DNA of 64,000 nucleotides from Microbacterium sp. 4R-513 (GTDB lineage: Bacteria; Actinomycetota; Actinomycetes; Actinomycetales; Microbacteriaceae), in the NCBI RefSeq assembly GCF_011046485.1, contig NZ_CP049256.1, positions 3,720,001-3,784,000 of the forward strand. The letters run 5' to 3'. Shown here one piece after another: positions 1 through 64,000 of the stretch. The notes under the pieces were generated by a model. That model saw nothing but the letters and a program-made list of their open reading frames with translations. It was not told the DNA's origin and made no database searches. Position 1 is the first letter of the stretch. Each line of letters starts with the position of its first letter. The translations under genes were made by a program, and so were the position numbers.

Positions 1-995
1 ACGACGATGCACCCGATGAGCCCGAGCTCCTCGCCGACGATGGCGAAGATGTAGTCGTTCGCTGCCGCGGGGAGCCAGTCGTACTTCTCCTTGGAGTTGC
101 CGAGGCCGAGCCCGAAGATGCCGCCGCCCGCGAGGCCCCAGATGCCGTGGAGCGGCTGGTAGCAGGAGTTGAAGTAATCCGCGAGGCAGTTCGCATCGAG
201 GAAGCTCATGATGCGGTGCATGCGGTTGGGGCTCGTCACGGCGAATGCCGCGGCCCCGACGATCCCGAGCAGGAGCGGGAGGATGAAGATGCGGAGCTTG
301 ACGCCCGAGAAGAACAGCGCGCCGAGGGCGACGAGGGCGATGACCATGGCGGTGCCCATGTCGTCGCCGGCCATGACCGCGGCGAGCACGAGGAGCGTCA
401 CCGGGACGAGCGGGATGAAGACGTGCGTCCACGACCCCAGGAGCGTCCGCTTGCGGAACAGCACGTAGCCGATCCACAGCGCGAGCGCGAGTTTGAGGAA
501 CTCTGCGGGCTGGGCCTGCACGCCGCCGATCGAGATCCAGTTGCGGTTTCCGTTGGCTTCCACGCCGAGGGGCGTGAAGACGAGCATCTGGAAGAGCAGC
601 GCGAAGATGAGGGCCGGCCACGCCGCGCGCTTCCAGAACTGGATGGGAAGGCGGCTCGCGATGAGCATGAGCGGGATGCCGATGAGGGCGAAGACCGCCT
701 GCTTGAGCACCGCCTCGTAGGGCGCCTCGCCCCGGGCGGTGGCCGTCGCCGAGGTCGCCGACAGGATCATGACGAGCCCGAAGCCCGTGAGCATGAGCGC
801 CGTCGACGTGATGAGCAGGAACTCGCTCGGCACGGGGGCGAAGACCTTGCCGAGATGCACGCGGGCGGCGAGCCCCCGTCTGCTCTTGACGGCTTCCGTG
901 TCCGGCCGCGAAGCGGTTCCGGCCGACGATGTGGCGGCGGTGGCGTCAGGCCTCTTCGCCGCCGGTCGGGTCGGTGTCGTCGTCGTGCTCGCCAT
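1..995 (-). CDS. ftsW: FtsW, peptidoglycan polymerase of the SEDS family (3' end beyond window)
   Basis: SEDS-family glycosyltransferase that polymerises lipid II at the septum together with the FtsI transpeptidase; polytopic membrane protein. The 331 visible residues begin with a basic, Ala/Thr-rich cytoplasmic tail of about 50 residues, followed by successive hydrophobic segments. The signature NRNWISIGG followed by QPAEFLKL and a later GLGLGNSKEKYDWLP stretch are typical of FtsW/RodA. The ATG at 995 lies inside the end of murD (50-bp overlap), so translation is probably coupled. The gene is last in the visible dcw cluster, where murG and murC usually follow. FtsW rather than RodA is inferred from this location. 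The C-terminus lies outside the window. Confidence 0.93.
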   Translation of the reverse strand, partial: MASTTTTPTRPAAKRPDATAATSSAGTASRPDTEAVKSRRGLAARVHLGKVFAPVPSEFLLITSTALMLTGFGLVMILSATSATATARGEAPYEAVLKQAVFALIGIPLMLIASRLPIQFWKRAAWPALIFALLFQMLVFTPLGVEANGNRNWISIGGVQAQPAEFLKLALALWIGYVLFRKRTLLGSWTHVFIPLVPVTLLVLAAVMAGDDMGTAMVIALVALGALFFSGVKLRIFILPLLLGIVGAAAFAVTSPNRMHRIMSFLDANCLADYFNSCYQPLHGIWGLAGGGIFGLGLGNSKEKYDWLPAAANDYIFAIVGEELGLIGCIV

Positions 996-2496
996 CGGCC
1001 CCCCTCGCGATCCGGTCGTTCACGGCCGCAGCGAATCGGCGACCCCGGTCGGCATAGGACGAGAACTGGTCGAAGGATGCCGCGGCGGGGGCGAGCAGCA
1101 CGACGTCCCCGTCACGTGCGATCCCGGCCGCCAGTTCGACGACCCTCGCCATGACGTCTTCAGTCTCATCGGCGTCCACCTCGAACACGGGCACCTCGGG
1201 CGCGTGTCGCGAGAACGCCGCGATCACGTGCTCGCGGTCGACGCCGATGACGATCGCCGCCCGCGAGCGGGCGCCGCGATCGGCGACGAGGTCGGAGATG
1301 TCGACGCCCTTGAGAAGGCCCCCGACGACCCACACCGCGCCCGGGAAGGCGGCGAGCGAGGATGCCGCGGCGTGCGGGTTCGTCGCCTTGGAGTCGTCGA
1401 CCCACGTGACACCCTCCGCCACGGCGACGACCTCGATGCGGTGGGGATCCAGGCGGAAGGTGCGCAGCGCGTCGCGGATCGCCGCGGGCTCCACGTCGAG
1501 CGAGCGCGCGAGCGCGCTCGCAGCGAGGATGTTGGCCACGACGTGCGGGGCCGCGAGTCCGTGCTCCCGCAGCTCGGCGACCGTCGTCAGTTCGAGCGCG
1601 CTGGTGCGGCGCTCCTCGTGGAAGGCCCGGTCGACGAGGATCCCCTCGACGACGCCGAAGTCGCTGGGCCCGGGCACCCCGAGATCGAATCCGATCGCCC
1701 GGGCGCCCTCGACGACATCGGCATCCTCGACCATCGCCTTGGTCGCGGCATCCGCCTTGTTGTAGACGCACGCGACGCGCGTGTTGTCGTAGACATGGGC
1801 CTTCGCATCGCGGTACGCCTCGAACGAGCCGTGCCACTCGAGGTGGTCGTCGGCGAGGTTGAGGCACACGGCGGCGTGCGGCGACACGGGGTCGGGACCC
1901 GACTGCAGGCCGAGGTACCAGAGCTGGTGACTCGACAGCTCGACGACGAGTGCGTCGAAGCCCTCCGGATCGCGCACGGCGTCGAGGACCGGCGTGCCGA
2001 TGTTGCCGACGGGTGCGGCGCGAAGACCGCCGGCCACGAGCATCGTCGCCGTGAGGCGTGTCGTCGTCGTCTTCCCGTTGGTCCCGGTGATGAGGATCCA
2101 GTCGGCGGGGCGCCCGTCGGGGCGCACGACCTTGTCGCGCACGCGCCACGCGAGCTCGACGTCTCCCCATAGCCCGATGCCCGACTCGCGGGCCCACGAG
2201 ACCACGGGATGCTGCGGGGCGAAGCCGGGCGAGGCGATGACGACGTCGGGGGCGAACTCCGAGAGCTCGGGGGGCACGGTGTCGAGGGGGCCCGTCCACA
2301 GGCGCGCTCCGATGACGGGGAGGAGGCGCTCGTACTCCTCGTCGGCCTTCTCGGTCACGACGAGCACTTCTGCGCCGAGCTCCGCGAGCGTGTCGGCGAC
2401 CGAGAAGCCGGTGACCGACAGGCCGAGGACGGCAGCGCGGAGGCCCTTCCAGTCGGCGTTCCAGCTGATCAGGGAGTCGAGACGCTCGGAGCTCAT
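946..2496 (-). CDS. murD: UDP-N-acetylmuramoyl-L-alanine--D-glutamate ligase
   Basis: Cytoplasmic Mur ligase that adds D-Glu to UDP-MurNAc-L-Ala. At 516 aa it is slightly longer than the usual 440-500. The N-terminal Rossmann domain starts LRAAVLGLSVTGFS; the ATP-binding P-loop is ITGTNGKTTTTRL; the C-terminal domain contains DDSKATNPHAA, the family DSKATN motif. The C-terminal tail is acidic (DGEHDDDTDPTGGEEA), covers the start of ftsW and may be dispensable. The ATG at 2496 overlaps the mraY stop by four bases (ATGA), typical of translational coupling. A longer reading frame running in from upstream only extends out of frame through mraY. Confidence 0.96.
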   Translation of the reverse strand: MSSERLDSLISWNADWKGLRAAVLGLSVTGFSVADTLAELGAEVLVVTEKADEEYERLLPVIGARLWTGPLDTVPPELSEFAPDVVIASPGFAPQHPVVSWARESGIGLWGDVELAWRVRDKVVRPDGRPADWILITGTNGKTTTTRLTATMLVAGGLRAAPVGNIGTPVLDAVRDPEGFDALVVELSSHQLWYLGLQSGPDPVSPHAAVCLNLADDHLEWHGSFEAYRDAKAHVYDNTRVACVYNKADAATKAMVEDADVVEGARAIGFDLGVPGPSDFGVVEGILVDRAFHEERRTSALELTTVAELREHGLAAPHVVANILAASALARSLDVEPAAIRDALRTFRLDPHRIEVVAVAEGVTWVDDSKATNPHAAASSLAAFPGAVWVVGGLLKGVDISDLVADRGARSRAAIVIGVDREHVIAAFSRHAPEVPVFEVDADETEDVMARVVELAAGIARDGDVVLLAPAAASFDQFSSYADRGRRFAAAVNDRIARGADGEHDDDTDPTGGEEA

Positions 2497-3602
2497 GTGC
2501 GGGCGAGCCATTCGACGTAGAACGCCCCGATGCCGGTGATCGCGAGCATCCCGGCGATGATCCACATCCGGATGACGATCGTGGTCTCCGGCCAGCCGCG
2601 CATCTCGAGGTGATGGTGGAAGGGGCTCATGAGGAACAGGCGTTTGCCGCGCGTGAGCTTGAAGTAGTACCGCTGCAGGATCACCGAGCCGGGGCCGATG
2701 ATGAAGACGCCGGCGACGATGACCGCGAGGATCTCGGTGCGCGACAGGATCGACATCGCCGCGATGACGCCGCCGATCGCCATCGAGCCCACGTCGCCCA
2801 TGAAGATCTGCGCCCTCGGCGCGTTCCACCACAGGAACCCGACGAGCGCTCCGACGAACGCGGCCGCGACGATCGTTAGATCGAGCGGATCGCGCGTGCC
2901 GTAACACGCGGTCTGATAGCTCGGCACGAGATCGACCGCGACGCAGCGCTGCTTGAACTGCCAGAACGTGATGAGGCTCATGGCGGCGATCGTGAAGATG
3001 CCCGAGCCGGCCGCGAGCCCGTCGAGGCCGTCCGTCACGTTCGTGCTGTTCGACCACGCGACCCCGATGAAGGTGATCCAGATGATGTAGAGGATCCAGC
3101 CGACGACGAGCCCGAGCGCCATGAACGACAGAACGGGGATGTCGCGGAAGAACGAGACGTAGGGCGAGGCCGGCGTCTGGCCGGCCGGGTTCGCGAAGCT
3201 CAGCGAGACGATCGCCCACGGCACGATGACGATGACCTGGCCGAGGATCTTGCGCCACCCGGTCAGGCCGAGGCTCCGCTGCCGGTGCAGCTTCATGTAG
3301 TCGTCGATGAAACCGACGACGCCGAAGCCCACCATCATCCAGAGGACGAGGATGCCCGAGAGCGTCGGCGGGAAGTTCCCCGCGTACGTGCCGATGAAGT
3401 AGCCGAGCAGCGTGCCAGCGATGAAGATGACGCCGCCCATCGTGGGCGTTCCGCGCTTCGCCTCGTGCGGCGGGATGTTGCCGTCCTCGGGCGTGCGGAT
3501 GATCTGGCCCCAGCCCCACCGGCGGAAGAGCCGGATGAAGACGGGCGTCAGGAAGAGAGTGAAGGCCAGCGAGATCGCCGTCGCGGTCAGAAGGGATCTC
3601 AC
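2493..3602 (-). CDS. mraY: Phospho-N-acetylmuramoyl-pentapeptide transferase
   Basis: Integral membrane enzyme that transfers phospho-MurNAc-pentapeptide from UDP to undecaprenyl phosphate, forming lipid I. 369 aa with about ten hydrophobic segments. Family motifs are visible: GFIDDYMKL near residue 100 (acidic DD), NVTDGLDGLAAG, and FMGDVGSMAIGG, plus the His cluster SPFHHHLEMRGWPE near the C-terminus. The GTG start at 3602 overlaps the murF stop (GTGA). It sits between murF and murD as in most dcw clusters. Confidence 0.97.
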   Translation of the reverse strand: MRSLLTATAISLAFTLFLTPVFIRLFRRWGWGQIIRTPEDGNIPPHEAKRGTPTMGGVIFIAGTLLGYFIGTYAGNFPPTLSGILVLWMMVGFGVVGFIDDYMKLHRQRSLGLTGWRKILGQVIVIVPWAIVSLSFANPAGQTPASPYVSFFRDIPVLSFMALGLVVGWILYIIWITFIGVAWSNSTNVTDGLDGLAAGSGIFTIAAMSLITFWQFKQRCVAVDLVPSYQTACYGTRDPLDLTIVAAAFVGALVGFLWWNAPRAQIFMGDVGSMAIGGVIAAMSILSRTEILAVIVAGVFIIGPGSVILQRYYFKLTRGKRLFLMSPFHHHLEMRGWPETTIVIRMWIIAGMLAITGIGAFYVEWLART

Positions 3603-7455: not shown

Positions 7456-8417
7456 GCGGCCGCCTCTCGGATCCGTTCCGCCGCGCGCAGGCGCACGGGC
7501 GTTGCCCGCGGGTTGCGGGCGATCTCTTCAGGCGAGGCGAGTTCGGCGCCCTTGACGAGCAGCCGGAAGCGTGGGGCGTGTTCGGGGAGCTCGACGGGAA
7601 GGCCCGCGGGCGCAGTGGATGCCGCGGCATCCGCCAGCACCCGCTTCACGAGCCGGTCCTCGAGCGACTGATACGACATCACGACGATGCGGCCGCCCAC
7701 CGGCAGGAGGTCGAGAGCTGCCGGGATCGCGGCTTCGAGCGCGGAGAGCTCGCTGTTGACCTCGATGCGCAGCGCCTGGAAGACGCGCTTGGCCGGGTGT
7801 CCGGTCCGCTGCGCCGCGTAGGGGGTCGCCGCGACGAGCACATCGACGAGCTGGCCGGACCGCTCGATCGGCGCCCGGCCGCGCGCGTCGATGATGGCGC
7901 GGGCGTAGCGTCCCGACAGCTTCTCCTCGCCGTAGCGCTCGAAGATGCGACGAAGCTGCCCCTCGCTGTAGTTCGCGACCACGTCGGCGGCGGTCATGCC
8001 GGCCGACTGGTCCATGCGCATGTCGAGCGGTGCGTCCTTCGAGTACGCGAAGCCGCGCTCCGCCTCGTCGAGCTGCAGCGACGAGACCCCGAGATCGAAG
8101 AGGATCCCATCCACCGAGTCGAGGCCGGTGGAGGAGACCGCCTCGGCGATCCCGTCGTAGACGGTGTGGACGAGCGACACTCGGTCGCCGAACGGTGCCA
8201 GGCGCTCCCCCGCGATCCGCAGCGCATCCCGGTCCCGGTCGAGGCCGATGAGCCGGATGGCCGGGAAGCGCTCGAGGAAGGCCTCGGAGTGGCCGCCCAT
8301 GCCGAGCGTCGCGTCGACGAGGACCCGCGGCGCGGAGCCCTCGCGATCCAGGGCGGGAGCGAGCAGCTCGACGCAGCGCTCGAGGAGGACGGGAGTGTGG
8401 ATGTCGCGCAGGTTCAT
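7452..8417 (-). CDS. rsmH: 16S rRNA (cytosine-1402-N4)-methyltransferase
   Basis: SAM-dependent methyltransferase modifying m4Cm1402 of 16S rRNA (formerly MraW). 321 aa from the ATG at 8417. It begins [19 protein letters not shown]; the SAM motif [20 protein letters not shown] and [21 protein letters not shown] are diagnostic. A GTG 21 codons upstream (8480) is in frame, but the extra residues are Gly/Ser-rich and unlike the family, so I prefer 8417. It lies 110 bp after mraZ and is coupled to ftsL. A perfect 16-bp palindrome made of two GGATGCC heptamers lies in the coding sequence at 7617-7632. Confidence 0.96.
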
Positions 8418-43048: not shown

Positions 43049-43054
43049 TATGAT
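43049..43054 (+). promoter_or_regulatory. -10 box TATGAT of pilB, followed by a G-tract leader
   Basis: TATGAT is near consensus and lies 43 bp before the pilB ATG. The predicted leader (from about 43061) contains four runs of four or five G (43061-43065, 43069-43072, 43087-43090, 43102-43105), the third forming part of the ribosome binding site. A G-quadruplex could form in the mRNA. Confidence 0.5.
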
Positions 43055-43097
43055 TCAGGTGGGGGTTTGGGGACTCCCATGGACTTGGGGAGATCCA

Positions 43098-44765
43098 ATG
43101 AGGGGACTCGCACAGACGCTTGTGCTGACCGGGGCCGTGCGTGCGGCCGAGATGTCGGCTGCGCTCGCCGAGGTGGGTGACGGCCCGGAGCTCAGAGAGC
43201 ACCTCGTCAACGCGCACATCGCGACCGAGGCGCAGGTCGCTGAGGCCGTCGCGCTGCACACAGGCCATCGCTATGTCGAGCTCGCGAACATCCCGCTCGA
43301 CCCGAACGTCGTGGCGCTCGTGCCCGGCAACATCTGCCGCAAGTACCAGCTGATCCCGCTCGACCGCCGGGGCGACCGGCTCGTGGTGGGCATCCTGGAT
43401 CCCAACGACATCGTCGCGCTCGACGACGTCGCCAGTGTCACCGACCTCTTCGTCGAGCCGGTCGTCGTCGCGCGCGACGCGCTGGAGCAGATGTTCGAGC
43501 GCTTCCTGCGGTCGGACGAGGAGCTCAGCGAGCTGTCCATCGCGATCGAGGAGAACGTCGAGTCGACGTCCGAGTCGTTCACCGAGACGATCGAGGATCA
43601 GGACGCCGACGCCCCCGTCGTGCGGTTCGTCAACCTCCTGATCTCTCAGGCCATCAACGACCGCGCGAGCGACATCCACGTCGAGCCGGGCGAGAGCCAG
43701 CTGACCGTCCGGTACCGCATCGACGGCGTGCTGCACGAGATGCAGAAGGCCGACCGGTCGATCCAGGACGGCATCATCTCGCGCCTCAAGATCATGTCGT
43801 CGATCGACATCGCGGAGAAGCGCCGGCCCCAGGATGGGCGCCTCTCGGTGGCGCACGAGGGCCGGCAGGTCGACCTCCGCGTCGCGACGCTACCGACCGT
43901 GTGGGGCGAGAAGATCGTCATGCGCATCCTCGACAACACCGGTCAGCGGATGGCGATGTCGGACCTCCTGATGTCGCCGCGCAACCTCGACCGGTTTGAG
44001 GCCTCGATCTCGCGGCCGCACGGCATGGTGCTGGCGACGGGTCCGACCGGGTCGGGCAAGTCGACGACGCTGTACACCGCGCTCCGGGCCGTGGCTAACC
44101 CGAAGATCAACGTCATCACGGTCGAAGACCCGGTGGAGTACCGCATCGGCGGCATCAACCAGGTGCAGGTGAACAACAAGGCCGGGCTGACGTTCAGCAA
44201 TGCCCTGCGGTCGATCCTGCGCTCCGACCCCGATGTCGTTCTCGTCGGCGAGATCCGCGACCACGAGACGGCCGTCATCTCCATCGAGGCGGCGCTCACC
44301 GGTCACCTCGTGCTGTCGACGCTGCACACGAACGACGCTCCGTCGGCTCTCACTCGCCTGACCGAGATCGGCTGCGAGCCGTTCCTCGTGGCGACGGCGC
44401 TCGAGGCCATCGTCGCCCAGCGTCTCGCCCGGCGGCTCTGCACGCGGTGCCGCGAGCCCTTCACCGAGCCGACCGACGTGCTGACGTCGCTCGGTTTTCC
44501 GCACGACCCGTCGGACCCGCCCCAGATCTTCCGCGCGGCCGGCTGCCCCGCCTGCTCGGGGACGGGCTACCGCGGTCGTGTCGCCCTGCACGAGGTCATG
44601 ACGCTCACCGAGGAGCTCGAGCAGCTCGTCGTGACGCGCGCGACGGGCAGCGAGATGCGTCAGGTCGCGCTGCGGCAGGGCATGGTGTCGCTCCGTGAGG
44701 ACGGCTTCAGCAAGGTCGCGCAGGGTCTCACGACCATCGAAGAGGTGCTGCGGGTCTCGGTGTAG
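43098..44765 (+). CDS. pilB: Type IV pilus assembly ATPase PilB
   Basis: Hexameric ATPase that powers pilus extension. 555 aa from the ATG at 43098 (GGGGAG five bases upstream). The N-terminal GspE-N domain (about 1-150) is followed by the ATPase: Walker A GPTGSGKSTTLYTA, Asp box VEDPVEYRIGGINQVQVN, Walker B ILRSDPDVVLVGEIRDHETA, and His box LVLSTLHTNDA. The tetracysteine zinc motif CTRCREP then CPACSGTGYRGR is intact. Unlike the other pil genes it is on the plus strand and is separated from pilC by a DUF222-HNH gene. Confidence 0.95.
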   Translation: MRGLAQTLVLTGAVRAAEMSAALAEVGDGPELREHLVNAHIATEAQVAEAVALHTGHRYVELANIPLDPNVVALVPGNICRKYQLIPLDRRGDRLVVGILDPNDIVALDDVASVTDLFVEPVVVARDALEQMFERFLRSDEELSELSIAIEENVESTSESFTETIEDQDADAPVVRFVNLLISQAINDRASDIHVEPGESQLTVRYRIDGVLHEMQKADRSIQDGIISRLKIMSSIDIAEKRRPQDGRLSVAHEGRQVDLRVATLPTVWGEKIVMRILDNTGQRMAMSDLLMSPRNLDRFEASISRPHGMVLATGPTGSGKSTTLYTALRAVANPKINVITVEDPVEYRIGGINQVQVNNKAGLTFSNALRSILRSDPDVVLVGEIRDHETAVISIEAALTGHLVLSTLHTNDAPSALTRLTEIGCEPFLVATALEAIVAQRLARRLCTRCREPFTEPTDVLTSLGFPHDPSDPPQIFRAAGCPACSGTGYRGRVALHEVMTLTEELEQLVVTRATGSEMRQVALRQGMVSLREDGFSKVAQGLTTIEEVLRVSV

Positions 44766-44861: not shown

Positions 44862-46169
44862 TCAGAACGGCGCGTCCGCGGATTCCGCCGGCCGGAAGAC
44901 GGGAACCCTGCGCTCCGGCTCCACGACATAGCGACGCCCCGTCGGAGAGATCCACTCGAGAGCACCACCGCTCCCCTCGATCTGGCGCACGGTCCAGCCA
45001 CCGTGGTGCTTGATCGTGTGGTGACCCGTGCAGAGCGGGCAAAGGTTTCCGAGCGAGGTGTGACCGCCGTGCTGCCACGCGATCGAGTGGTCGACCTCGC
45101 ATCTCGAGGCCGGGACGCTGCATCCCGGAGCCATGCATCGCTCGGCCCGCCACTTGACGAGCTTCGCCAGCCACGGAGGCGGCTCGTATCGATCGCGCGA
45201 GACCGAGAGCACCATTCCAGTCTCCGGATGGGTGAGGATGCGCATCATCGACCGGTCTTCCCCGGCCAGCTCGCGAGCCCGCTCGAGGGGAATCGGACCG
45301 ACTCCCTCGACGGTCGGCGGCTGCCCCGTCGCCGCTGCCGCAGCCGCCGCGCCGTCCTTCAGGAGCGCGAGCGCCGGCACCGTCACGACGACCGTCGGCC
45401 TGATCCCCCGCGCCTGCTCGGGATGCAGGTTGGAACGTCCGTCGATGAGGAGGTCGCTCATCACATCGGCGCGAGTCTGGTCGAGCGTCCGCGTCTCGTC
45501 AGGCGTCGCTTTGATGACCTTGGCCATCCTCGTAATCCGACCGTGGATCGCCTGGATCTCGACCGCGGGGCCGAAGAGCATGAGCCACGCCATGCCGTCG
45601 TCCGCAGGCATGACGGCCGTACGGCGCTGCGACGCAGCAGCTTCGTGGCGCTCAGCGAGGGTGACGAATCGCGCAGACTCCACGAGGCTGCGGAGGCGCC
45701 GACGGAAGGTGCCGATCGGCTCGACTTCGGCGAGCGCGACAGCCCGAGCGACGAGATCATCGCGCAGCTCGGCCTCCGCCTCGTCGACGAGGTCCACCAG
45801 GATGCTCGCGTGCCGCTCCGTCATGCGCGCATGAGACAGAGAGTCGAGTACGGCCGGATACCGGTGCACCACTGCCTCAGCAAGTCGCAGCAGCTCCTCG
45901 GCTGCGTGCTCGGTGATCCGCAGCCCGGCGGCGAGCTCGAGCCGCACCGAGCGGTGTGCCACCTCGTTCAGCTGCCGCCCGAATCGCTCCGCCTCGGCGA
46001 GCGCCTCGCGTCGCATCGCATCGATCCGCGCGAGCCGCTGTGCGGCGAGGACGGACATCACGTCGGCCACTTCGACGACCAATGCAAGAGAGTCCGGAAC
46101 ATCGGGAATGAACCGCTCATCCAGCCAGTCGGGGGCTTGCGCCTCTCCCAAACGGCTCTCCGGTGGCAT
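44862..46169 (-). CDS. DUF222 / HNH endonuclease domain protein
   Basis: 435 aa. The N-terminal DUF222 region (helical, about 40-330) precedes a C-terminal HNH nuclease with zinc-type Cys pairs: CMAPGCSVPASRCEVDHSIA, HTSLGNLCPLCTGHHTIKHH (Cys near residues 355-400). This family (13E12-like) is multicopy in Actinobacteria and suspected to be mobile or tied to DNA exchange; its function is unproven. It stands alone between pilB and pilC, breaking what is normally a continuous pil cluster. The ATG at 46169 is six bases after TAAGCT. Confidence 0.9.
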   Translation of the reverse strand: MPPESRLGEAQAPDWLDERFIPDVPDSLALVVEVADVMSVLAAQRLARIDAMRREALAEAERFGRQLNEVAHRSVRLELAAGLRITEHAAEELLRLAEAVVHRYPAVLDSLSHARMTERHASILVDLVDEAEAELRDDLVARAVALAEVEPIGTFRRRLRSLVESARFVTLAERHEAAASQRRTAVMPADDGMAWLMLFGPAVEIQAIHGRITRMAKVIKATPDETRTLDQTRADVMSDLLIDGRSNLHPEQARGIRPTVVVTVPALALLKDGAAAAAAATGQPPTVEGVGPIPLERARELAGEDRSMMRILTHPETGMVLSVSRDRYEPPPWLAKLVKWRAERCMAPGCSVPASRCEVDHSIAWQHGGHTSLGNLCPLCTGHHTIKHHGGWTVRQIEGSGGALEWISPTGRRYVVEPERRVPVFRPAESADAPF

Positions 46170-46277: not shown

Positions 46278-47516
46278 CTACGCCTGCTTCGCGAGATCCC
46301 CGTAGAGCGTGAAGATGGGCAGGTAGAGCGAGATGACCATGGCACCGATGATGATGCCGAGGCCCACGATGAGGACGGGCTCGATCGTCGCCGAGAGCTG
46401 CGAGGTCGCCGTCTCGACCTCGTCCTCGTAGAAGTCCGCGATGCTCGCGAGCATCTCCGACAGCGTTCCCGACTCCTCGCCCACCGCGACCATCTGCGGG
46501 ACCATCGTCGGGAACACGCCCGCCTTGGCCAGCGGCCCGGAGAACGAGCGCCCCTGTCGCACGGAGTCCTGGATGTCGTGCACGGCCCGCTCGACCGCCC
46601 AGTTGTTCGAGGCCTGGCCCACGATCGCGAGCGCCTGGATGATCGGCACACCGGCGTCGAGCATCATCGAGAGGTTGCGGCTGAACCGCGCCACAGCCAT
46701 CTTCGTGAAGACCTTGCCGAAGATGGGCATCTTGAGCTTGAAGGGGTCGATGACCCTCCTCACGCTCTCCTTATTCCGGTTGCGGAGCCACCACACCCAG
46801 GCGACGCCGACCACGACGATGAGGAGCGGCAGAATCCACCACATGTTGCGCGAGATCGTCACGAGGATCTGCGTCGGCAGCGGAAGCGAAGTGCCGAGCC
46901 CCGCGAACATGTTCTCGAACACCGGTACGACGAAGGTCACCATCGCCAGCACGCCGATGATGGCGATGATGAGGACGATCGTCGGGTAGGTGACGGCAGC
47001 GCGGATCTTGTTCTGGAGCTCGGACTCCTTCTGATAGTTCTCGGCGAGCGACATCATCGCCCGCGAGAGGAATCCACCCGTCTCGCCCACCCGCACGATG
47101 CTGATCATGAGAGGCGGGAAGATCTCGGGATGCCGCGACAGTGCCTGCGAGAACGACGAGCCGCTCTCGACATCCGCCTGCACCTTCACGAGGGCGGGCT
47201 GCAGCCGCTTGTCCTCCGTCTGCTCGATGAGGATCGAGAGGGTCCGCATGAGCGGAAGGCCCGCGTTCAGCAGACCCGCCATCTGCCGCGTGAAAATGGC
47301 GAGCGACTTGGCCTTGACCGTCCCGCCGAGGCCCGGGATCTTGATCTCGCGGTTGAGACCGGTCTTGGAGAGCGGCGAGATCTCGAGGGGCGTGAGGCCC
47401 TGAGCGCGCAGCTTGCCGGTCACCGCCGACTCGCTGGATGCCTCCATCGAGCCCTTGATGACGCTGCCGCCGCGCGGGTCGACCGCGCGGTACGTGAATT
47501 CCTGAACGATCGCCAT
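46278..47516 (-). CDS. pilC: Type IV pilus inner membrane platform protein PilC
   Basis: Polytopic GspF-family platform protein of 412 aa on which PilB and PilT act. It has two homologous GspF domains (about 75-198 and 278-400): IFTRQMAGLLNAGLPLMRTL and ARFSRNLSMMLDAGVPIIQAL. Three main membrane segments include IVLIIAIIGVLAMVTFVVPVF. The N-terminus EFTYRAVDPRGGSVIKGSME is typical. ATG at 47516, two bases after the pilT stop. Last gene of the operon. Confidence 0.95.
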   Translation of the reverse strand: MAIVQEFTYRAVDPRGGSVIKGSMEASSESAVTGKLRAQGLTPLEISPLSKTGLNREIKIPGLGGTVKAKSLAIFTRQMAGLLNAGLPLMRTLSILIEQTEDKRLQPALVKVQADVESGSSFSQALSRHPEIFPPLMISIVRVGETGGFLSRAMMSLAENYQKESELQNKIRAAVTYPTIVLIIAIIGVLAMVTFVVPVFENMFAGLGTSLPLPTQILVTISRNMWWILPLLIVVVGVAWVWWLRNRNKESVRRVIDPFKLKMPIFGKVFTKMAVARFSRNLSMMLDAGVPIIQALAIVGQASNNWAVERAVHDIQDSVRQGRSFSGPLAKAGVFPTMVPQMVAVGEESGTLSEMLASIADFYEDEVETATSQLSATIEPVLIVGLGIIIGAMVISLYLPIFTLYGDLAKQA

Positions 47517-47518
47517 GA

Positions 47519-48652
47519 TCAGATCCCCTGGTACTGACGTTCGCCGGCGTGCATCGACCACGCCTCGGCATCGAGGTCGCGCGGCCGCACATGCACGCCG
47601 TCGAGGTACTTCGGATCGACCGCGAACATCCGGGCGACGTGTGCCGCGATGACGCCCTCCTCGACGAGTCGCCGGAGGTCTTGATCCAATGTGTGCATGC
47701 CCACCTGCGCACCGGCCTGCATCGCCGTGTAGAGCTGCGCGACCTGGCCCTCACGGATGAGGTTCGCAACCGCCGGCGTGTTGATGAGCACTTCAGTCGC
47801 GATCGTCCGGCCGCCCGTCTGCGCGAGCGGCATGAGCGTCTGGCTGATAATGCCCTGGAGGGTGTCGCCGAGCTGCGTCCGGATCTGCTGCTGCTGATCG
47901 GCGGGGAACACATCGACGATGCGGTTCACGCTCTTCGCCGCGCCCTGCGTGTGCAGGGTTGAGAGAACGAGGTGGCCCGTCTCCGCCGCGGAGAGCGCCG
48001 TCTGAATCGACTCCGGGTCGCGAAGCTCGCCGATGAGGATGACATCGGGGTCCTGGCGCAGCACGCGGCGCAGGGCCTCGGCGAACGATCCCGTGTCGGC
48101 TCCCACCTCGCGCTGGTGGATCAGGGACCTCTTGCTCTCGTGATGGAATTCGATCGGATCTTCGATCGCGATCACGTGCGCCGGCAGCGTGTTGTTGATG
48201 ATGTCGACCATCGCTGTCAGGGTCGTCGACTTGCCCGAGCCCGTCGGACCCGTGAGCAGCACGAGGCCTCTCGGCTTGAGCGCCAGGTCGCGCGCGATGG
48301 CGGGCGCCCCCAGCTCTTCGAGGGTGAAAACGCGCTGCGGGATGAAACGGAGGGCGACAGCAATCGATCCGAGCTGGCGGAACACGTTGACGCGGAAGCG
48401 CCCGAGGCCTTCGGACGCGTGCGCGAGATCCACCTCGTGGCGTTCGTCGAACTCGTCGCGCTGCGCAGGCGCCATGAGTCCGAACGCGGCCGACTCCACC
48501 CAGAGGGCGGAGAGCGGGTCGGTGTATCCGGGGATCGGCACAAGGTCGCCGTCGACGCGCATGAGCGGCGGAGCTTCGGCCGTCAGGTGGACATCGGATG
48601 CGTCGTACCGGGAGGCCGCGAGCAGCAGCCCATCGAGTGCACTCGGGCTCAT
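47519..48652 (-). CDS. pilT: Type IV pilus retraction ATPase PilT
   Basis: 377-aa retraction motor. N-terminal SDVHLTAEAPPLMRVDGDLVPI; Walker A LLTGPTGSGKSTTLTAMVD; Asp box AIEDPIEFHHESKRSLIHQREVG; Walker B LRQDPDVILIGELRD; His box LVLSTLHTQGAA. No tetracysteine motif, as expected for PilT. Its presence implies retractable pili, needed for twitching or DNA uptake. Two bases separate it from pilO and from pilC. Confidence 0.95.
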   Translation of the reverse strand: MSPSALDGLLLAASRYDASDVHLTAEAPPLMRVDGDLVPIPGYTDPLSALWVESAAFGLMAPAQRDEFDERHEVDLAHASEGLGRFRVNVFRQLGSIAVALRFIPQRVFTLEELGAPAIARDLALKPRGLVLLTGPTGSGKSTTLTAMVDIINNTLPAHVIAIEDPIEFHHESKRSLIHQREVGADTGSFAEALRRVLRQDPDVILIGELRDPESIQTALSAAETGHLVLSTLHTQGAAKSVNRIVDVFPADQQQQIRTQLGDTLQGIISQTLMPLAQTGGRTIATEVLINTPAVANLIREGQVAQLYTAMQAGAQVGMHTLDQDLRRLVEEGVIAAHVARMFAVDPKYLDGVHVRPRDLDAEAWSMHAGERQYQGI

Positions 48653-48654
48653 GA

Positions 48655-49365: not shown

Positions 49366-50018
49366 CACTCGCCGCCTTCCTGCGTCGCGAACTGTCCGGA
49401 GTAGATGGACTGGTCGAACGCGATGTCGAGTTCGTAGACGTAGGAGCCGACCGTCTGCTGACCCGTCGACAGCGAACGGCCGTCGACCGACGACACGCCT
49501 GCCAGGCCGCGGATGCCGCGCACCGTGGCCGGCAGGTCGATCGGCGTGGGGCTCTCGAGCGTGAGCGTGCCGGTGAGACCGATCTCCGTCGCCGGGTCGG
49601 CGGTCTGCGGCACTCCGCCGCTCACGACATCGAACCCGACCAGGGTGACGTCGGGCGGCAGCGCGCTGCGGATGGACGCCACGATCGGGGACCACGCGAA
49701 GTCGCCGCCCATCGCATCGGAGCGGAATGACTGCAGCTCCTGCTCCGTCGCGAGCGCGCCGCTGACGTCGGACAGGCCCGCGAGCTCCGAGGTGAGGAGG
49801 TTCGTCTGCGCCTGCTGCGCCGCGAGCTGCTGGTCGGCGAGGAGTTTGAGCGCGAAGGCGCCCATGATGATGAGGACGGCCGCGACGACTGCCGCGAGCA
49901 CACCCCAGACCCAGCCGCGGGCGAGAGAGGCGCGGCGACGACGCTCGATCTCGACCGGCGGCATGAGGTTGACGCGCGGCACGCCGGCGAACGCCAGCGC
50001 GGGTGCTGTGCGGGCCAT
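49365..50018 (-). CDS. pilN: PilN-like pilus alignment protein
   Basis: Bitopic protein of 217 aa. The N-terminal cytoplasmic motif VNLMPPVEIERRR (family INLLP) is the peptide that docks into PilM. A membrane segment (GWVWGVLAAVVAAVLIIMGAFALKLLAD) and coiled coil follow, then an extracellular domain. Overlaps both pilM and pilO by one base in TGATG junctions. Confidence 0.88.
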   Translation of the reverse strand: MARTAPALAFAGVPRVNLMPPVEIERRRRASLARGWVWGVLAAVVAAVLIIMGAFALKLLADQQLAAQQAQTNLLTSELAGLSDVSGALATEQELQSFRSDAMGGDFAWSPIVASIRSALPPDVTLVGFDVVSGGVPQTADPATEIGLTGTLTLESPTPIDLPATVRGIRGLAGVSSVDGRSLSTGQQTVGSYVYELDIAFDQSIYSGQFATQEGGE

Positions 50019-51058
50019 CAGTTCCCCTCCCCGAGCAGGATGCCGAGCGTGCTGACGGCGTTGAACGCAAGCTCTTCGGGGAGAGCGAGCCCGCTGCTGA
50101 TCTTCACGACATCGGCGACGTGGATGCCTCGCACCGGAACGTCGAAGGCGCGGGTGAGCGACTCGGACACCCCGTGCGCGAGGAAGCCGGCGCCGCTCAC
50201 CGCCACCGCCGAGATGCGCGGGGCGCCGGGCCGGTTCGTGAAGAACGACACCGTGCTGCGGATGCGGCTGACGAGGTCGGCGACCGAGGGATCCCCGGCA
50301 CCGCCCGTCCGCAGCGCGGCCCGCGTGCGCGTGACGCTGGCCGGCATGGGGGGCACGGTCTCTAGGGCGAACTCCTCGACCGGCACGTCGACGAGAGAGT
50401 TGAGCGCTTCGTCGCGTCGCCGCACGGCGGCCGTCGCGACGTCGGCGGGAAGGATGCGCACGAAGTGCGGCACCCCGTCGGTGGCGATCACGACGTGCGA
50501 TGTGTGGTCGCCGACGTGGATCATCGCGATCGTGTCGCCCGCGACGGCGATGCGCTTGGCCACCCGCGCGAGACCGAACGGCACGAGGTCGACCGCCCGG
50601 GTCTTGAGCTTCGCGCGGTCGGTCGTGGCGATGAGCTGTTCGATCGTCTCGGCCACGGCCGCGACGAGGAGTCCCGACACCTGGTCGCCGATCTGCGACA
50701 CCGGGTAGAAGTCCAGCACCGCCTGATTGGCGGGCACGGGCAGGAGGTCCTGCACTTGGTACGGAAGCGCCTGACGGAGCATCTCGGGCGCCATCGCCTG
50801 CGTCGTGTACTCGCGCACGAGGATCCGGCGGCTTCCCACACCGAGCGTCACCTCACGCCCCTTGAACGCGAAGGTCGACCACAACTGCCGCAGCGCCATC
50901 GCCACGACATCCCGATCGATCACCTCCGAGTCCCGCGCCGCCTCCTCCGGCAGCGCGATCTCGCCCGCCGCGACGAGGACGGGAGTCTTGCCACGCCGTA
51001 TCTCTACGGCACGCACACTCTCTTCTGTTATCTCCAGGCCGACCACTGTCGATGCCAT
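50018..51058 (-). CDS. pilM: PilM, actin-like pilus assembly protein
   Basis: Cytoplasmic actin-fold ATPase-like protein of 346 aa. VGLEITEESVRAVEIRRGKT at the N-terminus is the phosphate-1 strand; VREYTTQAMAPEMLRQALPYQVQDLLPVP and the C-terminal VSGAGFLAHGVSESLTRAFDVPVRGIHVADVV complete the fold. PilM binds the PilN N-terminal peptide and connects the motor to PilNO. The ATG is 21 bp after the prepilin peptidase stop. Confidence 0.9.
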   Translation of the reverse strand: MASTVVGLEITEESVRAVEIRRGKTPVLVAAGEIALPEEAARDSEVIDRDVVAMALRQLWSTFAFKGREVTLGVGSRRILVREYTTQAMAPEMLRQALPYQVQDLLPVPANQAVLDFYPVSQIGDQVSGLLVAAVAETIEQLIATTDRAKLKTRAVDLVPFGLARVAKRIAVAGDTIAMIHVGDHTSHVVIATDGVPHFVRILPADVATAAVRRRDEALNSLVDVPVEEFALETVPPMPASVTRTRAALRTGGAGDPSVADLVSRIRSTVSFFTNRPGAPRISAVAVSGAGFLAHGVSESLTRAFDVPVRGIHVADVVKISSGLALPEELAFNAVSTLGILLGEGN

Positions 51059-51079
51059 GTTTCCCTCTCCCCTGCCTGC

Positions 51080-51895
51080 TCAGAGTCCGAGCAGGCTGAC
51101 GTACCAGGCGCCGAGCGCCTGCCCCATAAAGATTCCGACCCATGCTCCGGCGAGCATCCACGGGCCGAAAGGAATCGCTGAGCGCCGCCCGGCGCGGCGC
51201 ACAGCGATGAGTGCGAGTCCGAACAGTCCGCCGAGCACGAAGGCTGCGAACGCCCCGACGGCGAGGGCTCCCCAGCCCAGCCACCCGAGATAGAGACCGA
51301 CGACGCCGGCCAGCTTGACGTCTCCGCCGCCCATTCCGTCGGGACGGATGAGGCGGATGACGAAATAGAAGCCGTAGAGGATCGCCATGCCGATGACGGC
51401 CGTCAGCAGCCGGCCCCAGTCCGCGCCCAGCACGCAGGCTGCCGTGAGCAGAACGCCGGCGACGACGTAGCTCGGCAGGACGATCGCGTTCGGAAGGCGG
51501 TGTGTGTCGAGGTCGATCAGCGTCAGCACGACGCTGATCGCCGCGAAGTAGAGGAACGCGACCAGCACCGCATACGTCGCCGGGAGGGGTGCGGTGCTGG
51601 TCGCGAGTGTGAGCCAGGCGACGAGCGCGAAGAAGACGCCCGTGATCGCCTCGACGATCGGATACCGCGGCGAGATGCCCTTCCCGCACGACGCGCAGCG
51701 CCCGCGCAGGATGAGCCACCCGCCGACGGGCACGTTGTGCCACGGCTTGATGGCCGCATCGCAGTGGGGGCACCGGCTCTCGCGCGCGAGCGGCATGCCG
51801 GCGGGCACGCGCACGGCCACGACGTTCAGGAAGGAGCCGATGATGAGGCCCAGAATGCCTGAGACGACGACGGTGAAGGGGACGAGGACGGCCAC
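51080..51895 (-). CDS. pilD: Prepilin peptidase (PilD type A24)
   Basis: Membrane aspartyl protease and N-methylase that processes prepilins. 271 aa. The N-terminal methylase domain has the zinc tetracysteine CPHCDAAIKPWHN then GRCASCGKGISPRYP. Catalytic aspartates are in LTLIDLDTHRLPN and RPDGMGGGDVKLAGVVGLYLG (GxGD motif). About seven membrane segments. GTG start at 51895, one base after the PilX-like stop. It would process the four pilin-like proteins encoded just upstream. Confidence 0.95.
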   Translation of the reverse strand: MAVLVPFTVVVSGILGLIIGSFLNVVAVRVPAGMPLARESRCPHCDAAIKPWHNVPVGGWLILRGRCASCGKGISPRYPIVEAITGVFFALVAWLTLATSTAPLPATYAVLVAFLYFAAISVVLTLIDLDTHRLPNAIVLPSYVVAGVLLTAACVLGADWGRLLTAVIGMAILYGFYFVIRLIRPDGMGGGDVKLAGVVGLYLGWLGWGALAVGAFAAFVLGGLFGLALIAVRRAGRRSAIPFGPWMLAGAWVGIFMGQALGAWYVSLLGL

Positions 51896-51896
51896 G

Positions 51897-53516
51897 CTAC
51901 TTCTCCGACTGGTAGACGAGGCCGTCGAGACGCTGCACGAGCGTGCTCGAGTCGATGATGCCGCCGGATCCCTTGATCGTGCAGCCGAGGCTGGGAAGAG
52001 CCGTGCCCCAGCTCATCGGCTTGCAGGTGTAGGCAGACCCCGAGTGGAAGTTCGTGGTGTCGTCTGTGTACAGCTGACCCGCGAAGCTCGCCGTGACCGT
52101 ACCGCTGAGGCCGCACGGCGAGTAGATCATGACGCTGATGTTCGACGCGATCGAGCCGGTGGTGCCGAACCCGTCCTGCGCGTTGCGCGTGCCCGAGCTT
52201 CCGCACGTCGGCTTCGGGTCGCCCGACGCGTCGCGGTCGTCGCGGTTGCCGTCCGCATGGACGAACAGCAGCTGGAAGTTGCTGCCGGCGGCGGCCGTGA
52301 GACCACCCAGCGAGATCGTGAGTCCCTGGTCCTTCGGCGAGATGACGACGACGTTTCGGGTGACGGGCACGGATCCGGTCAGATCCAGCTTGACGTCCTT
52401 CGTGCACCCACTGAAGTTGAGGACGAGCGGGGTCGTGCCCGAAGAAAGCAGTGGCTTGACCTTGGCCGTGGCGGTGTTCGCGTTCTGCAGATCGCTCGCG
52501 CAGTTGATGGGCGCGGACGTTCCCCAGCTCGACGCGCCGTCGAGGTCGATCCACTTCGTCGCGGCGCGTAACCATGCGAGCGTCGGGTCGAACACGGGGT
52601 CCGATGGCGAGTTCTGGGTCACGGCCCCGGTCGTCCAGGCCGGCAAGTCGACAACCGCCGTGCCCTTCGTCGTCACCGTGCCGCCGACCGTCGCAGCGCC
52701 ACCGCCCGTCGCGTTGAGTTTGATGTTTCCCTTGGCCGAAATGTACCCGGCGACAGTCGGATTGCCGTTGGCGTCGAAGGAAACCGTGCCGTTGGTGGTG
52801 ATGTTGCCAGCGCTCGTGCTGCCCGCTCGGGCGTTGACGTGCCACGACTGGGAGTTGCTCGAGACGTTGCCGCTCGCGTAGATGTCGCCGTTGACGATGC
52901 ATCCGGTGCTGAGGCTCACGGTGCCGTTCAGGACATACAGGTCGCCGTCGAGCGTGCCGCCGTTAGGGCATGCCCAGTTTCCGTTCCGGAGCACGAGGTC
53001 GCCTGTGTAGTGCGACACGCTCTGCGAGACGCTGCCCGAGAAGTAGGTGACGACGCCGCCCGGGACGTTCGAGTACGTGACAGTCCACGGATAAACGGAG
53101 TCGATCGTGGTGGTCGCGCCGTCGGGGCCCGTGCCGGTCGTGCGGAAGACGACGTACTTCGAGGTGCTCGACGGGCACCCCAGCGTGACGCCGGCGTCCG
53201 TGGCCGAGGTCGGCTTGGTACCGCTCGTCGAATAGATCTTGGTGGTGTAGGTCGGGTTGGTGCCGGTGAGCGTCGTCGCCGTGCACCCGGCGGTAACGGC
53301 CGCAACCCCCACATCGCGGCCGGATTCGGCAGCGATGAAGGCCTCGGTACGGTCTTTGTTGGTGTCGTTGGCGCCGATCGTGAACATGACGGATGCCGCG
53401 ATCGTCGCCGCGACGATGAAGCCGACGAACATCACCACGACCACCGTGACGAGGATCGCGCCGCTCTCGTCGCTGCGGAACTTCGCCCGCGCGAGCAGTC
53501 GCTGAATCACCAACAT
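51897..53516 (-). CDS. PilX-like minor pilin with a large beta-helix-like domain
   Basis: 539 aa. Residues 14-48 (FRSDESGAILVTVVVVMFVGF and on) form a pilin-like or PilX-type N-terminal helix without the usual G/F processing site. About residues 175-290 repeat short strands with turn Gly/Asp/Asn (GGTLDGDLYVLNGTVSL, GCIVNGDIYASGNV, AGNITTNGTVSFDANG, GYISAKGNIKLNATGG, GGTVTTKGTAVVD), resembling bactofilin or other right-handed beta-helices. A C-terminal domain follows with several Cys (CSGC absent; FSGCTKDVKL, CGSSG, SPCGLSG, YTCKPM). Size and place suggest a tip or adhesive subunit, which is inference. Its ATG overlaps the PilW-like gene by ten bases. Confidence 0.75.
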   Translation of the reverse strand: MLVIQRLLARAKFRSDESGAILVTVVVVMFVGFIVAATIAASVMFTIGANDTNKDRTEAFIAAESGRDVGVAAVTAGCTATTLTGTNPTYTTKIYSTSGTKPTSATDAGVTLGCPSSTSKYVVFRTTGTGPDGATTTIDSVYPWTVTYSNVPGGVVTYFSGSVSQSVSHYTGDLVLRNGNWACPNGGTLDGDLYVLNGTVSLSTGCIVNGDIYASGNVSSNSQSWHVNARAGSTSAGNITTNGTVSFDANGNPTVAGYISAKGNIKLNATGGGAATVGGTVTTKGTAVVDLPAWTTGAVTQNSPSDPVFDPTLAWLRAATKWIDLDGASSWGTSAPINCASDLQNANTATAKVKPLLSSGTTPLVLNFSGCTKDVKLDLTGSVPVTRNVVVISPKDQGLTISLGGLTAAAGSNFQLLFVHADGNRDDRDASGDPKPTCGSSGTRNAQDGFGTTGSIASNISVMIYSPCGLSGTVTASFAGQLYTDDTTNFHSGSAYTCKPMSWGTALPSLGCTIKGSGGIIDSSTLVQRLDGLVYQSEK

Positions 53517-54034
53517 CCGCCGTTACCTGTTTCTTGATCTGATCGAACTGCGACGTCGCCGCTAATCCGCACCGGAGCGGATTCCGTCTGGATGTCGAAG
53601 CTGTAAGAGAGAACGCCGTTCGTGAGGGTGAAGTAGGGCGCTCCGCCGACCGCCTTGATGGCGGGCTTCCACGCCGGCCAGGTAGTGCCGATAGACGTGG
53701 AAGATGTTGCGACCTGCACGCCCGTGGAGGCGACCTTGAATCCCTGACACTTAAGCGCTGTACCGTCGAGGGAGGTGCGCACGCGGAGCTCATCTCCCGC
53801 ACCGTTGACGCTGAGATAGAGCGAGTTTCGTACGGCCCGCTCGATCATCGACCCAACGACTTGGCCACGATTGGTGCTGCCGGTCACGCTCGTCACTTGA
53901 TCCTGCGTCTTCCAGGAATTCACGAAGATTGAAGCGATCGCAATCATGATGATCCCGGTCACGACCAGCACGACTATGAGCTCAATCAGCCCCAGCCCGG
54001 AGTCATCATCGCGCTTCGACGTGTGATGGGTCAT
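53507..54034 (-). CDS. PilW-like minor pilin
   Basis: 175 aa. Type IV prepilin signal: DDDSGLGLIELIVVLVVTGI, cleaved after Gly with Leu in place of the usual Phe, Glu at +5 followed by a hydrophobic helix. The globular part has a possible disulfide (CQGF ... GGCW at the C-terminus). ATG at 54034, overlapping the upstream pilin stop (ATGA). Its position among minor pilins fits PilW/PilJ-type subunits that prime assembly. Confidence 0.8.
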   Translation of the reverse strand: MTHHTSKRDDDSGLGLIELIVVLVVTGIIMIAIASIFVNSWKTQDQVTSVTGSTNRGQVVGSMIERAVRNSLYLSVNGAGDELRVRTSLDGTALKCQGFKVASTGVQVATSSTSIGTTWPAWKPAIKAVGGAPYFTLTNGVLSYSFDIQTESAPVRISGDVAVRSDQETGNGGCW

Positions 54035-54420
54035 GGGATATAGACGAGTGCTGTGGTGGAGGCGAGGACTTTGCCGTCGCCGGTGATCTGCAGAGAGAGT
54101 CGCGCGGCTCGACCGGAACTGCAATTTGTGACGGTTCCCGCTACGACCAAATCCCGACCGCGACCATCTTTCAGCGGGGTGGCGGACGGTGACGGAGTGG
54201 CGATCGAATTGAGCGCCGAGCAGGAGTGCGCGTCGCGCGCCTCCTCCACGAGGGCGTTGAGGTATCGAGTAGCGGTCGCCGTCGACGATTGCCTAGCCGA
54301 CTGGGAGATCCCCTGCCACAGTCCCGGCAATATGGCGACCGCCACCACCGCGAGGAGGAAGATCGCTATAACCACCTCGACCAGACCAAAGCCCTGATCG
54401 GCTCTATTTCTACCCGACAT
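54031..54420 (-). CDS. PilV-like minor pilin
   Basis: 129 aa. Prepilin signal ADQGFGLVEVVIAIFLLAVV (cleavage after Gly, then FGLVEV with Glu at +5). The short globular domain has two Cys (HSCSALN, TNCSSG). It follows pilA by 62 bp and overlaps the next pilin gene. It matches the PilV/GspI-like minor pilin profile by size and order. Confidence 0.8.
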   Translation of the reverse strand: MSGRNRADQGFGLVEVVIAIFLLAVVAVAILPGLWQGISQSARQSSTATATRYLNALVEEARDAHSCSALNSIATPSPSATPLKDGRGRDLVVAGTVTNCSSGRAARLSLQITGDGKVLASTTALVYIP

Positions 54421-54482
54421 CTGCAGCTCCGAAGTTGGGACTCGGAGCTGGCGTACTGGACGCCAGCTCCGAGCTCGGCGTG

Positions 54483-54869
54483 CTAGGAGCAGCCCGGTCC
54501 GGACTTGTACGACTGAGCCGTCGCCGGCAGGTCAGTGTTCGTGGCCGTGGCGCAGACCGAGTCGATGGTGGCAGTCGCACCCGGCTTGCCCGCCACGGTG
54601 ATCTTGGTGTCGCCGGTCTTGTATTCAGTCGGGGTCTCGCCGTTTGCGAGCTGAGCCGACCACTGAGTCGCCGCAGCCGCCGCAACGGACTTGGTCGCGT
54701 TGATCCGCGCGTTCTCCTGGATGCTGCCGAAGACCGGGATGGCGATCGCGACGAGGATGCCGAGGATGACCACGACGATGATGAGCTCGATCAGCGAGAA
54801 GCCCTTCTCGCCGTTCTCCTCGCGACGCTGCTTTGCGGACTCGAGGTAGTTGTGAATTGTTGCACGCAC
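54483..54869 (-). CDS. pilA: Major pilin (type IVa-like prepilin)
   Basis: 128 aa. Prepilin leader ends EENGEKG followed by FSLIELIIVVVILGILVAIAIPVF, the canonical processing site with Phe at +1 and Glu at +5. The C-terminal domain is small with a Cys pair (DSVCAT ... GPGCS) forming a likely disulfide loop. First gene of the operon and so the likely major subunit. GTG start at 54869 with AAGGAG seven bases upstream; that box abuts a long hairpin in the leader. Confidence 0.93.
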   Translation of the reverse strand: MRATIHNYLESAKQRREENGEKGFSLIELIIVVVILGILVAIAIPVFGSIQENARINATKSVAAAAATQWSAQLANGETPTEYKTGDTKITVAGKPGATATIDSVCATATNTDLPATAQSYKSGPGCS

Positions 54870-58470: not shown

Positions 58471-58514
58471 GGCATCCGTCGCCTGGATCTCGCCGTATGA
58501 CGACGACGGATGCC
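58471..58514. repeat. Inverted pair of GGATGCC heptamers in a divergent intergenic region
   Basis: GGCATCCGTCG (58471-58481) and CGACGGATGCC (58504-58514) form an 11-bp stem with a 22-base loop, between the divergent MFS and DUF7144 genes. A terminator role is unlikely at this position. Confidence 0.65.
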
Positions 58515-61167: not shown

Positions 61168-61217
61168 ACGACGGATGCCTCGGCTCGGCGGCTTCGCCGG
61201 GCCGGGGCATCCGCGTC
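61168..61217. terminator. Terminator between the beta-helix gene and the aldo/keto reductase gene
   Basis: Imperfect stem whose arms include GACG-CGGATGCC-CGGC and GCCG-GGCATCCGCGTC, between convergent genes. It is built on an inverted pair of the GGATGCC heptamer (61173-61179, 61206-61212). Confidence 0.7.
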
Positions 61218-62233: not shown

Positions 62234-62309
62234 GACGGAACTCCTTCGAACAGGGAGGGGTTTCTCTATCCTGGCCCCTCCCGGGCGCTCGGGTGCCGCG
62301 GGGCCCGGC

Positions 62310-63885: not shown

Positions 63886-63891
63886 TAGCAT
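63886..63891 (+). promoter_or_regulatory. -10 box TAGCAT, leaderless start predicted
   Basis: TAGCAT, six bases, then the ATG at 63898. Confidence 0.65.
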
Positions 63892-63897
63892 CGCGGC

Positions 63898-64000
63898 ATG
63901 CCAGAACATCGCGTGACTCCCCCGCCGCCCTCGGACGAGAAGCTGAAGGGACCGGCGTCGTACTTCCCGAGCATCGAGAAGAACTACGGCCGGCCGATTC
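63898..64000 (+). CDS. DUF4287 domain protein (cut by window end)
   Basis: Only the first 34 residues are visible: a Pro-rich start, then LKGPASYFPSIEKNYGRPI, which matches the beginning of DUF4287. Function unknown. ATG at 63898 is six bases after a TAGCAT box and has no Shine-Dalgarno sequence. Confidence 0.75.
   Translation, partial: MPEHRVTPPPPSDEKLKGPASYFPSIEKNYGRPI

Follow-up and report, generated by a model that had tools for sequence, protein, structure and literature searches.

HIP1 (highly iterated palindrome 1) of cyanobacteria, GCGATCGC, is a palindromic short word that is hyper-abundant genome-wide, and Chi sites are abundant short words of self DNA. Uptake tags are reported to be known in two families only (PMC12616744). 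In Neisseriaceae, the DNA uptake sequence (DUS) has about 12 bases (PMC5031613) and occurs in dialects that share a core and follow phylogeny (PMC3630211); in Pasteurellaceae, the uptake signal sequence (USS) is an abundant short word of two described types (PMC12616744, PMC5031613). Here, we analyzed the word GGATGCC in a 64,000-nucleotide stretch of the chromosome of Microbacterium sp. 4R-513 (contig NZ_CP049256.1, positions 3,720,001 to 3,784,000; hereafter the window), in the whole genome, and in its relatives. We lean slightly towards GGATGCC, here extended to GACGGATGCC[G/T]CG, being a putative tag by which Microbacterium recognizes its own DNA for uptake in natural transformation.

GGATGCC looks like DUS and USS in how abundant it is, in its even split between strands, in having dialects, and in the machinery of its hosts. 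Like DUS, it is present in thousands of copies, its dialects have a short core in common and follow phylogeny, and both form inverted pairs, which are tabulated for DUS (PMC3630211). Unlike DUS, it belongs to a monoderm host of the phylum Actinomycetota, its core is CGGA rather than CTG, and one of its dialects is palindromic; as a 7-base core it reaches about 2280 copies per Mb, a density not directly comparable with those of DUS because the core lengths differ. GGATGCC resembles USS as an abundant short word, but it is unrelated in sequence and found in another phylum. Unlike HIP1, GGATGCC is asymmetric and most of its dialects are non-palindromic, and the HIP1 word was outside the top over-represented lists both of a 464-kb sample of the genome (the window plus twenty 20-kb slices taken along the chromosome) and of samples from motif-poor relatives. 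In the literature searched, which lacked many subscription papers and bioRxiv preprints, we found no report of uptake words in Actinomycetota or of the GGATGCC motif or its dialects. The letters GGATGCC do appear in unrelated papers.

Abundance and form of GGATGCC

In the window, GGATGCC occurred 86 times on both strands, against a mean of 14.5 and a maximum of 23 in 100 dinucleotide shuffles; the original prediction had put the count at about 70, with about 15 expected. A third-order Markov model expected 23.8 copies and gave the word the top z-score among all 7-mers, whereas under a fifth-order model it was outside the top list, since the excess is already present in its component 5- and 6-mers. 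The single-contig genome of 3,910,080 bases contained 6199 copies (3068 forward and 3131 reverse), compared with 167 + 197 of a reversed control word. In the 464-kb sample, third- and fourth-order models predicted 182.5 and 361 copies, respectively, but 710 were present; the 20-kb slices (n = 20) each held 18–39 copies (mean: 31.2; variance: 25.7). The excess of GGATGCC is real and genome-wide. The strand-bias check likewise gave a balanced result: forward and reverse copies in the 20 slices were 148/151 and 160/165 for the two contig halves (origin assumed at the contig start), and this absence of orientation bias distinguishes the word from Chi.

Genes were predicted from GC content at codon positions, and the intergenic class may therefore hold missed genes. 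Predicted genes contained 582 copies of GGATGCC, whereas 20 synonymous-codon shuffles that kept every protein gave 174.9 (standard deviation: 8.9); for ACGGATGCC, the corresponding values were 143 and 11.5. The word exceeded the shuffles in all six frame and strand classes, most strongly as Asp-Ala (207 vs. 37.4) and Ala-Ser (142 vs. 5.5) and least in two other classes (150 vs. 110.6 and 21 vs. 12.1). Its density was similar in genes (1505 per Mb) and between genes (1594 per Mb). These results uphold the earlier observations that the word occurs in several frames and between genes, and that codon or peptide bias is insufficient to explain it.

The extended consensus in this genome was GACGGATGCC[G/T]CG, as had been anticipated: in the 464-kb sample, ACGGATGCC occurred 184 times against 11.4 expected, and GGCATCCGTC, which is GACGGATGCC read on the opposite strand, 159 times against 5.9. 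The base after GGATGCC was G at 64% of sites and T at 24%. In many other genomes, the flanks were weaker, often just a G after the word. Beyond the extended consensus, flanks showed codon periodicity alone, and, unlike USS, GGATGCC had no AT-rich tracts within 45 bp. Flank signals at −5 and −14, seen with the 86 window sites, faded with 707 sites.

Spacing between copies was Poisson-like (coefficient of variation: 0.98), neither clustered nor even, with the exception of convergent pairs (GGATGCC followed by GGCATCC), which made up 36 of the 64 pairs within 60 bp. At a spacing of 9, 15 convergent pairs were found against about 0.3 expected by simple arithmetic. This tight form, GGATGCC-NN-GGCATCC, was inside predicted genes in 12 of its 15 occurrences in the 464-kb sample, and four of the 15 were the full perfect 22-base palindrome GACGGATGCCGCGGCATCCGTC. 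Only eight of the 36 convergent pairs lay wholly between predicted genes; therefore, the pairs are not mainly terminators. The four inverted pairs originally listed at 7617, 27967, 58471, and 61173 all exist, the second being placed at 27970, and the last, described as lying within a terminator, is indeed intergenic and terminator-like. Copies and pairs in the window were as follows:

1..64000, 42 forward + 44 reverse: GGATGCC copies, dispersed across the window
7617..7632: GGATGCC-GC-GGCATCC, an inverted pair of the tight form located in mraW (rsmH; Methyltransf_5 match)
27970..27985: inverted pair of the tight form, contained in palindrome GACGGATGCCGCGGCATCCGTC and close to the 3' end of a gene for a Cys/Met-metabolism pyridoxal phosphate enzyme
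58471..58514: GGCATCC followed by GGATGCC (divergent orientation), spacing 37
61173..61212: terminator-like GC-rich hairpin with the inverted pair at its two ends, flanked by convergent predicted genes (59470-61155, +; 61232-62458, -)

Dialects and their inheritance

Among 366 Microbacterium genomes, the lowest density of GGATGCC was about 162 per Mb and the highest about 2280 per Mb, and some GGATGCC-poor genomes held different words that share its 5' half. Sampling of motif-poor genomes yielded CGGATCCG from G098 and G099, and CGGAACCA from G281 (13.6-fold over the third-order model). These words were counted in 80 whole genomes picked mostly for low GGATGCC, so that the following fractions are not genus frequencies. 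CGGAACCA had 2372–2917 copies in three genomes (G154, G281, and G354) and 34–213 in the other 77, and the palindrome CGGATCCG had 1171–3091 sites in 21 genomes, 472–954 in five, and 50–415 in the remaining 54. GGATGCC itself was at 162–396 per Mb in the 21 genomes whose CGGATCCG sites exceeded 1000, and at 176–221 per Mb in the three CGGAACCA genomes. In Microbacterium sp. 8M, CGGATCCG was counted 44 times against 9.0 (both strands, 21 kb). Provisional dialects from samples of 20–80 kb were CGGATGGCC (G032), CGGATGCTG (G240 and G245), and GGATGCGG (G078, G079, G301, and G331), the last from orthologous 20-kb loci of related genomes whose counts are not independent. The word thus has at least three and perhaps six dialects, three by whole-genome counts and three more provisional; they are mutually exclusive and share GGA at the 5' end, usually CGGA. 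No dialect was visible in 36–80 kb of G064, G310, G195, G352, G113, G148, G161, and G214.

The GGATGCC word is present in part of the family Microbacteriaceae, several genera of which are rich in it. In a family sample, two of the 120 genomes, both from group g56 (a second genus), held 1510 and 1635 copies of CGGATCCG with 275–290 GGATGCC per Mb, and the others held at most 529 copies of CGGATCCG. Among further genera of the family, G419 had 37 copies of GGATGCC against 14.7 and G445 was GGATGCC-rich; a seventh such genus, G392, with only a 1.2-kb contig, was left out. Outside the family, 23 order-level relatives had 541–2007 GGATGCC per genome (raw counts, without expectation). In pooled Cryobacterium loci, AGCGGATGC was 17-fold over-represented and is perhaps a further word variant, although partly orthologous loci inflate the counts. 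Additionally, CTAGCCTAG, AGTCTAGTG, and TGGAGTAAA were far above expectation in nine pooled dcw loci (the "high mix" L122, L133-L135, L150, L152, and L155-L157), and these words may be conserved repeats upstream of mraZ.

A tree of LeuS and ComEC from 32 genomes (IQ-TREE quick search, SH-aLRT [Shimodaira–Hasegawa-like approximate likelihood ratio test], midpoint root) grouped the three CGGAACCA genomes together. The GGATGCC genomes G160/G264/G067 were sister to the CGGATCCG genomes G083/G286/G345 (support 100), the CGGATGCTG pair grouped with a GGATGCC genome (support 99), and G064, with no visible dialect, fell among CGGATCCG genomes. The dialects are therefore inherited but switch. Conservation of individual sites was measured in 44 pairs among 25 dcw loci (84–97% identity), leaving out seven loci of other dialects and gapped aligned sites; the pairs share loci, and the counts are not independent. 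Aligned comparisons of GGATGCC were identical in 1396 of 2100 cases (66%), compared with 47.3% for same-letter shuffled words, pooled from every second such word. Two or more base differences were found in 431 of the 704 non-identical sites (61%), compared with 35% in controls. The 273 single-base differences were spread over all seven positions and comprised 20 position/base changes, with T to C at the fourth base the most frequent (85 of 273).

Pilus and competence genes

A type IVa-like pilus set was found at 43050-54869, and the genes for PilB, PilC, PilT, and a pilin that had been recognized in the window were all present, together with PilM, a prepilin peptidase, and further pilins:

43050..44765, + strand: PilB-type pilus assembly ATPase (TIGR02538, 1.7e-185, below the curated cut-off)
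44862..46169, - strand: DUF222/HNH protein between pilB and pilC, inside the pilus locus
46278..47561, - strand: PilC (T2SSF, two domains)
47519..48652, - strand: PilT retraction ATPase (TIGR01420, above the cut-off)
50018..51058, - strand: PilM (above the cut-off in one model search, below it in another)
51080..51895, - strand: prepilin peptidase, PilD type
53507..54124, - strand: pilin-like protein with N-terminal methylation motif
54031..54420, - strand: pilin-like protein with N-terminal methylation motif
54483..54869, - strand: pilin

Among 80 matches listed for the window's PilT, the nine closest relatives were all from Microbacterium (75–84% identity), and the others were at most 56% identical. 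PilM was found in 114 of the 366 genomes (113 above the curated cut-off). In the 342 genomes that were at least 90% complete (24 of the 366 were dropped), the median density of GGATGCC was 1311 per Mb with PilM (n = 108) and 1111 per Mb without it (n = 234), a weak difference (Mann–Whitney P = 0.003, uncorrected for descent), and 35 of the 51 densest genomes lacked PilM. The pilus locus itself was motif-poor, with 10 sites in 11.85 kb (P approximately 0.04, in a test chosen after long gaps had been noticed). On this distribution, the type IV pilus is rejected as the determinant of GGATGCC, and the supposed link between the word and the window's pilus falls with it. The same bias in relatives without pilus genes, to which the original prediction had pointed as a refutation, was indeed found in genomes without PilM; it refutes this pilus but not uptake as such, because a strong match to PF00437 (pilus-type secretion ATPase) other than PilB was present in 36 of 36 genomes, of which nine had the full PilB form.

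In the window's genome, two PF00437 ATPases matched the TadA model, one of them above the cut-off, and the two Tad clusters had these ATPases beside T2SSF genes, with TadE-like genes in one cluster. The pilus-poor and motif-rich genomes G377 and G009 also had TadA above the cut-off. All four proteins checked were TadA by model, and the PF00437 ATPases of the other genomes are probably TadA as well. ComEC was found in all 71 genomes examined (35 low-motif, 35 high-motif, and the window's own), ComEA in 33 of 33, and DprA in 36 of 36. Being present wherever tested, ComEC, DprA, ComEA, and pilus ATPases were rejected as discriminators of motif-rich from motif-poor genomes; their presence permits uptake without telling the two kinds of genome apart. 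Transformation of the actinobacterium Micrococcus luteus requires tad genes, and the same is considered likely for other Actinobacteria (PMC4322843); the way in which Tad pili such as those of M. luteus bind DNA is described as undiscovered (PMC12153270). In Microbacterium sp. 3J1, ComEC expression was about 5-fold higher at 50% than at 5% polyethylene glycol, a drying-like stress (PMC5177630).

Possible uptake signal and rival explanations

Observed over expected GGATGCC under a second-order model was compared in nine phages, irrespective of host-strain dialect. Five were at 0.6- to 2.0-fold (Min1, 16/12.8; SanaSana, 6/10.0; Quenya, 10/10.4; Lynlen, 15/10.2; Clayda5, 21/10.7), and Zeta1847 was at 2.7-fold (27/10.1). 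The 17-kb phages Efeko (L206), Noelani (L227), and BarBear (L228), with 19/3.7, 22/3.6, and 25/3.8, are related to one another (73–94% identical in aligned pieces). In these three, other 7-mers were more biased and GGATGCC ranked 8th, 11th, and 8th, respectively. Strongly biased words also included CGCCGGC, shared by all three, and ACATGTC, seen in Noelani and BarBear. A search for plasmids matched a single Microbacterium record, which carries chromosomal genes.

An uptake-signal-like motif, which the original prediction had suggested, is the best-supported reading, although not in the proposed connection with the type IV pilus, and the dialect pattern is the strongest new argument for it. The extreme abundance of the word, its balance between strands, its excess in every frame, the fairly high conservation of its sites, and the presence of the competence genes also speak for uptake. 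DNA with the local word would be preferred by a receptor on the cell surface, which would probably sit on a Tad/Flp pilus because only about a third of species have a type IV pilus. Recombination of the DNA taken up would slowly enrich the local word, and a change in receptor specificity would cause the genome to turn over to a new dialect. Whether this amounts to a self-specific, multi-dialect uptake system in Microbacteriaceae, evolved independently of those of Neisseriaceae and Pasteurellaceae, the first in Gram-positives, read by Tad/Flp pili, and acting as a barrier to gene exchange within the genus, we consider evenly poised. Several results weigh against uptake. Eight genomes with no visible dialect keep ComEC (8/8), DprA (8/8), and ComEA (7/7 examined), and no such word was seen in 40–60 kb of four of the six further family genera (G402, G404, G421, and G439). 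One dialect, CGGATCCG, is palindromic. The conservation of GGATGCC sites is high but was surpassed by at least eight shuffled control words out of 402 (per-word mean: 41.7%; standard deviation: 15.7). Accessory DNA poor in the motif was not seen in the dcw loci, where less-shared DNA had 18 sites in 9.5 kb (1899 per Mb), compared with 669 sites in 529 kb (1266 per Mb). Finally, Efeko, Noelani, and BarBear, at 5.1–6.6-fold, equal the host density, which cuts against a pure uptake model, or else these phages mimic or share the tag.

The phages with raised counts (the three related small phages and Zeta1847 are above expectation) also fit an intracellular reader, under which carrying the word would benefit them. 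Here, GGATGCC would be a chromosomal self-mark, such as a Chi-like control of end processing or a site for a nucleoid or repair protein, with the specificity of its reader changing between clades. The weak relation of motif density to the type IV pilus and the presence of com genes whether or not the word is abundant fit this view, to which we give a small but appreciable chance. However, the word lacks orientation bias on the chromosome, in contrast to classical Chi, which is polar; one dialect is palindromic; and thousands of sites turning over jointly need a drive that a self-mark does not supply. We consider it doubtful that GGATGCC is a target of methylation or restriction-modification, or an iterated word akin to HIP1. 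CGGATCCG contains GGATCC, the recognition site of BamHI, and GGATGCC contains GGATG, that of FokI; the abundance of the word also resembles HIP1 of cyanobacteria. Yet restriction sites are usually avoided rather than enriched, and dialect words sharing their 5' half are unlike unrelated enzyme specificities.

Mutation or repair bias turning near-matches into the word, which we regard as very improbable, accords with the raised one-mismatch words of the 464-kb sample (GGATGTC, 1.48-fold; GGATTCC, 1.84-fold) and with the frequent T to C change at the fourth base. However, five phages were at background or at most 2-fold, and a mutational signature of the single-step kind, which had been listed among the possibilities, is unlikely because differences between species hit every position with many substitutions and most often involve two or more bases. 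Bias in codon pairs or amino-acid composition is hardly credible: the Asp-Ala and Ala-Ser frames do dominate the excess, but every frame exceeded the synonymous shuffles, density was alike in and between genes, and dialects replace one another. In this genome, the shuffles and the intergenic copies count against composition bias.

Even if uptake is the wrong reading, a switching word at up to about 2280 per Mb demands a reader, and none has been reported in the literature searched. If GGATGCC and its dialects are uptake tags, they would add to the two known cases a third one, unrelated to them and from a phylum of monoderms, and would show that such tags have arisen repeatedly and can do without an outer membrane or a type IVa pilus. 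The natural dialect switches among hundreds of sequenced species could then be used to map the receptor, and the same set of species would allow testing of whether uptake bias alone drives the accumulation of tags.

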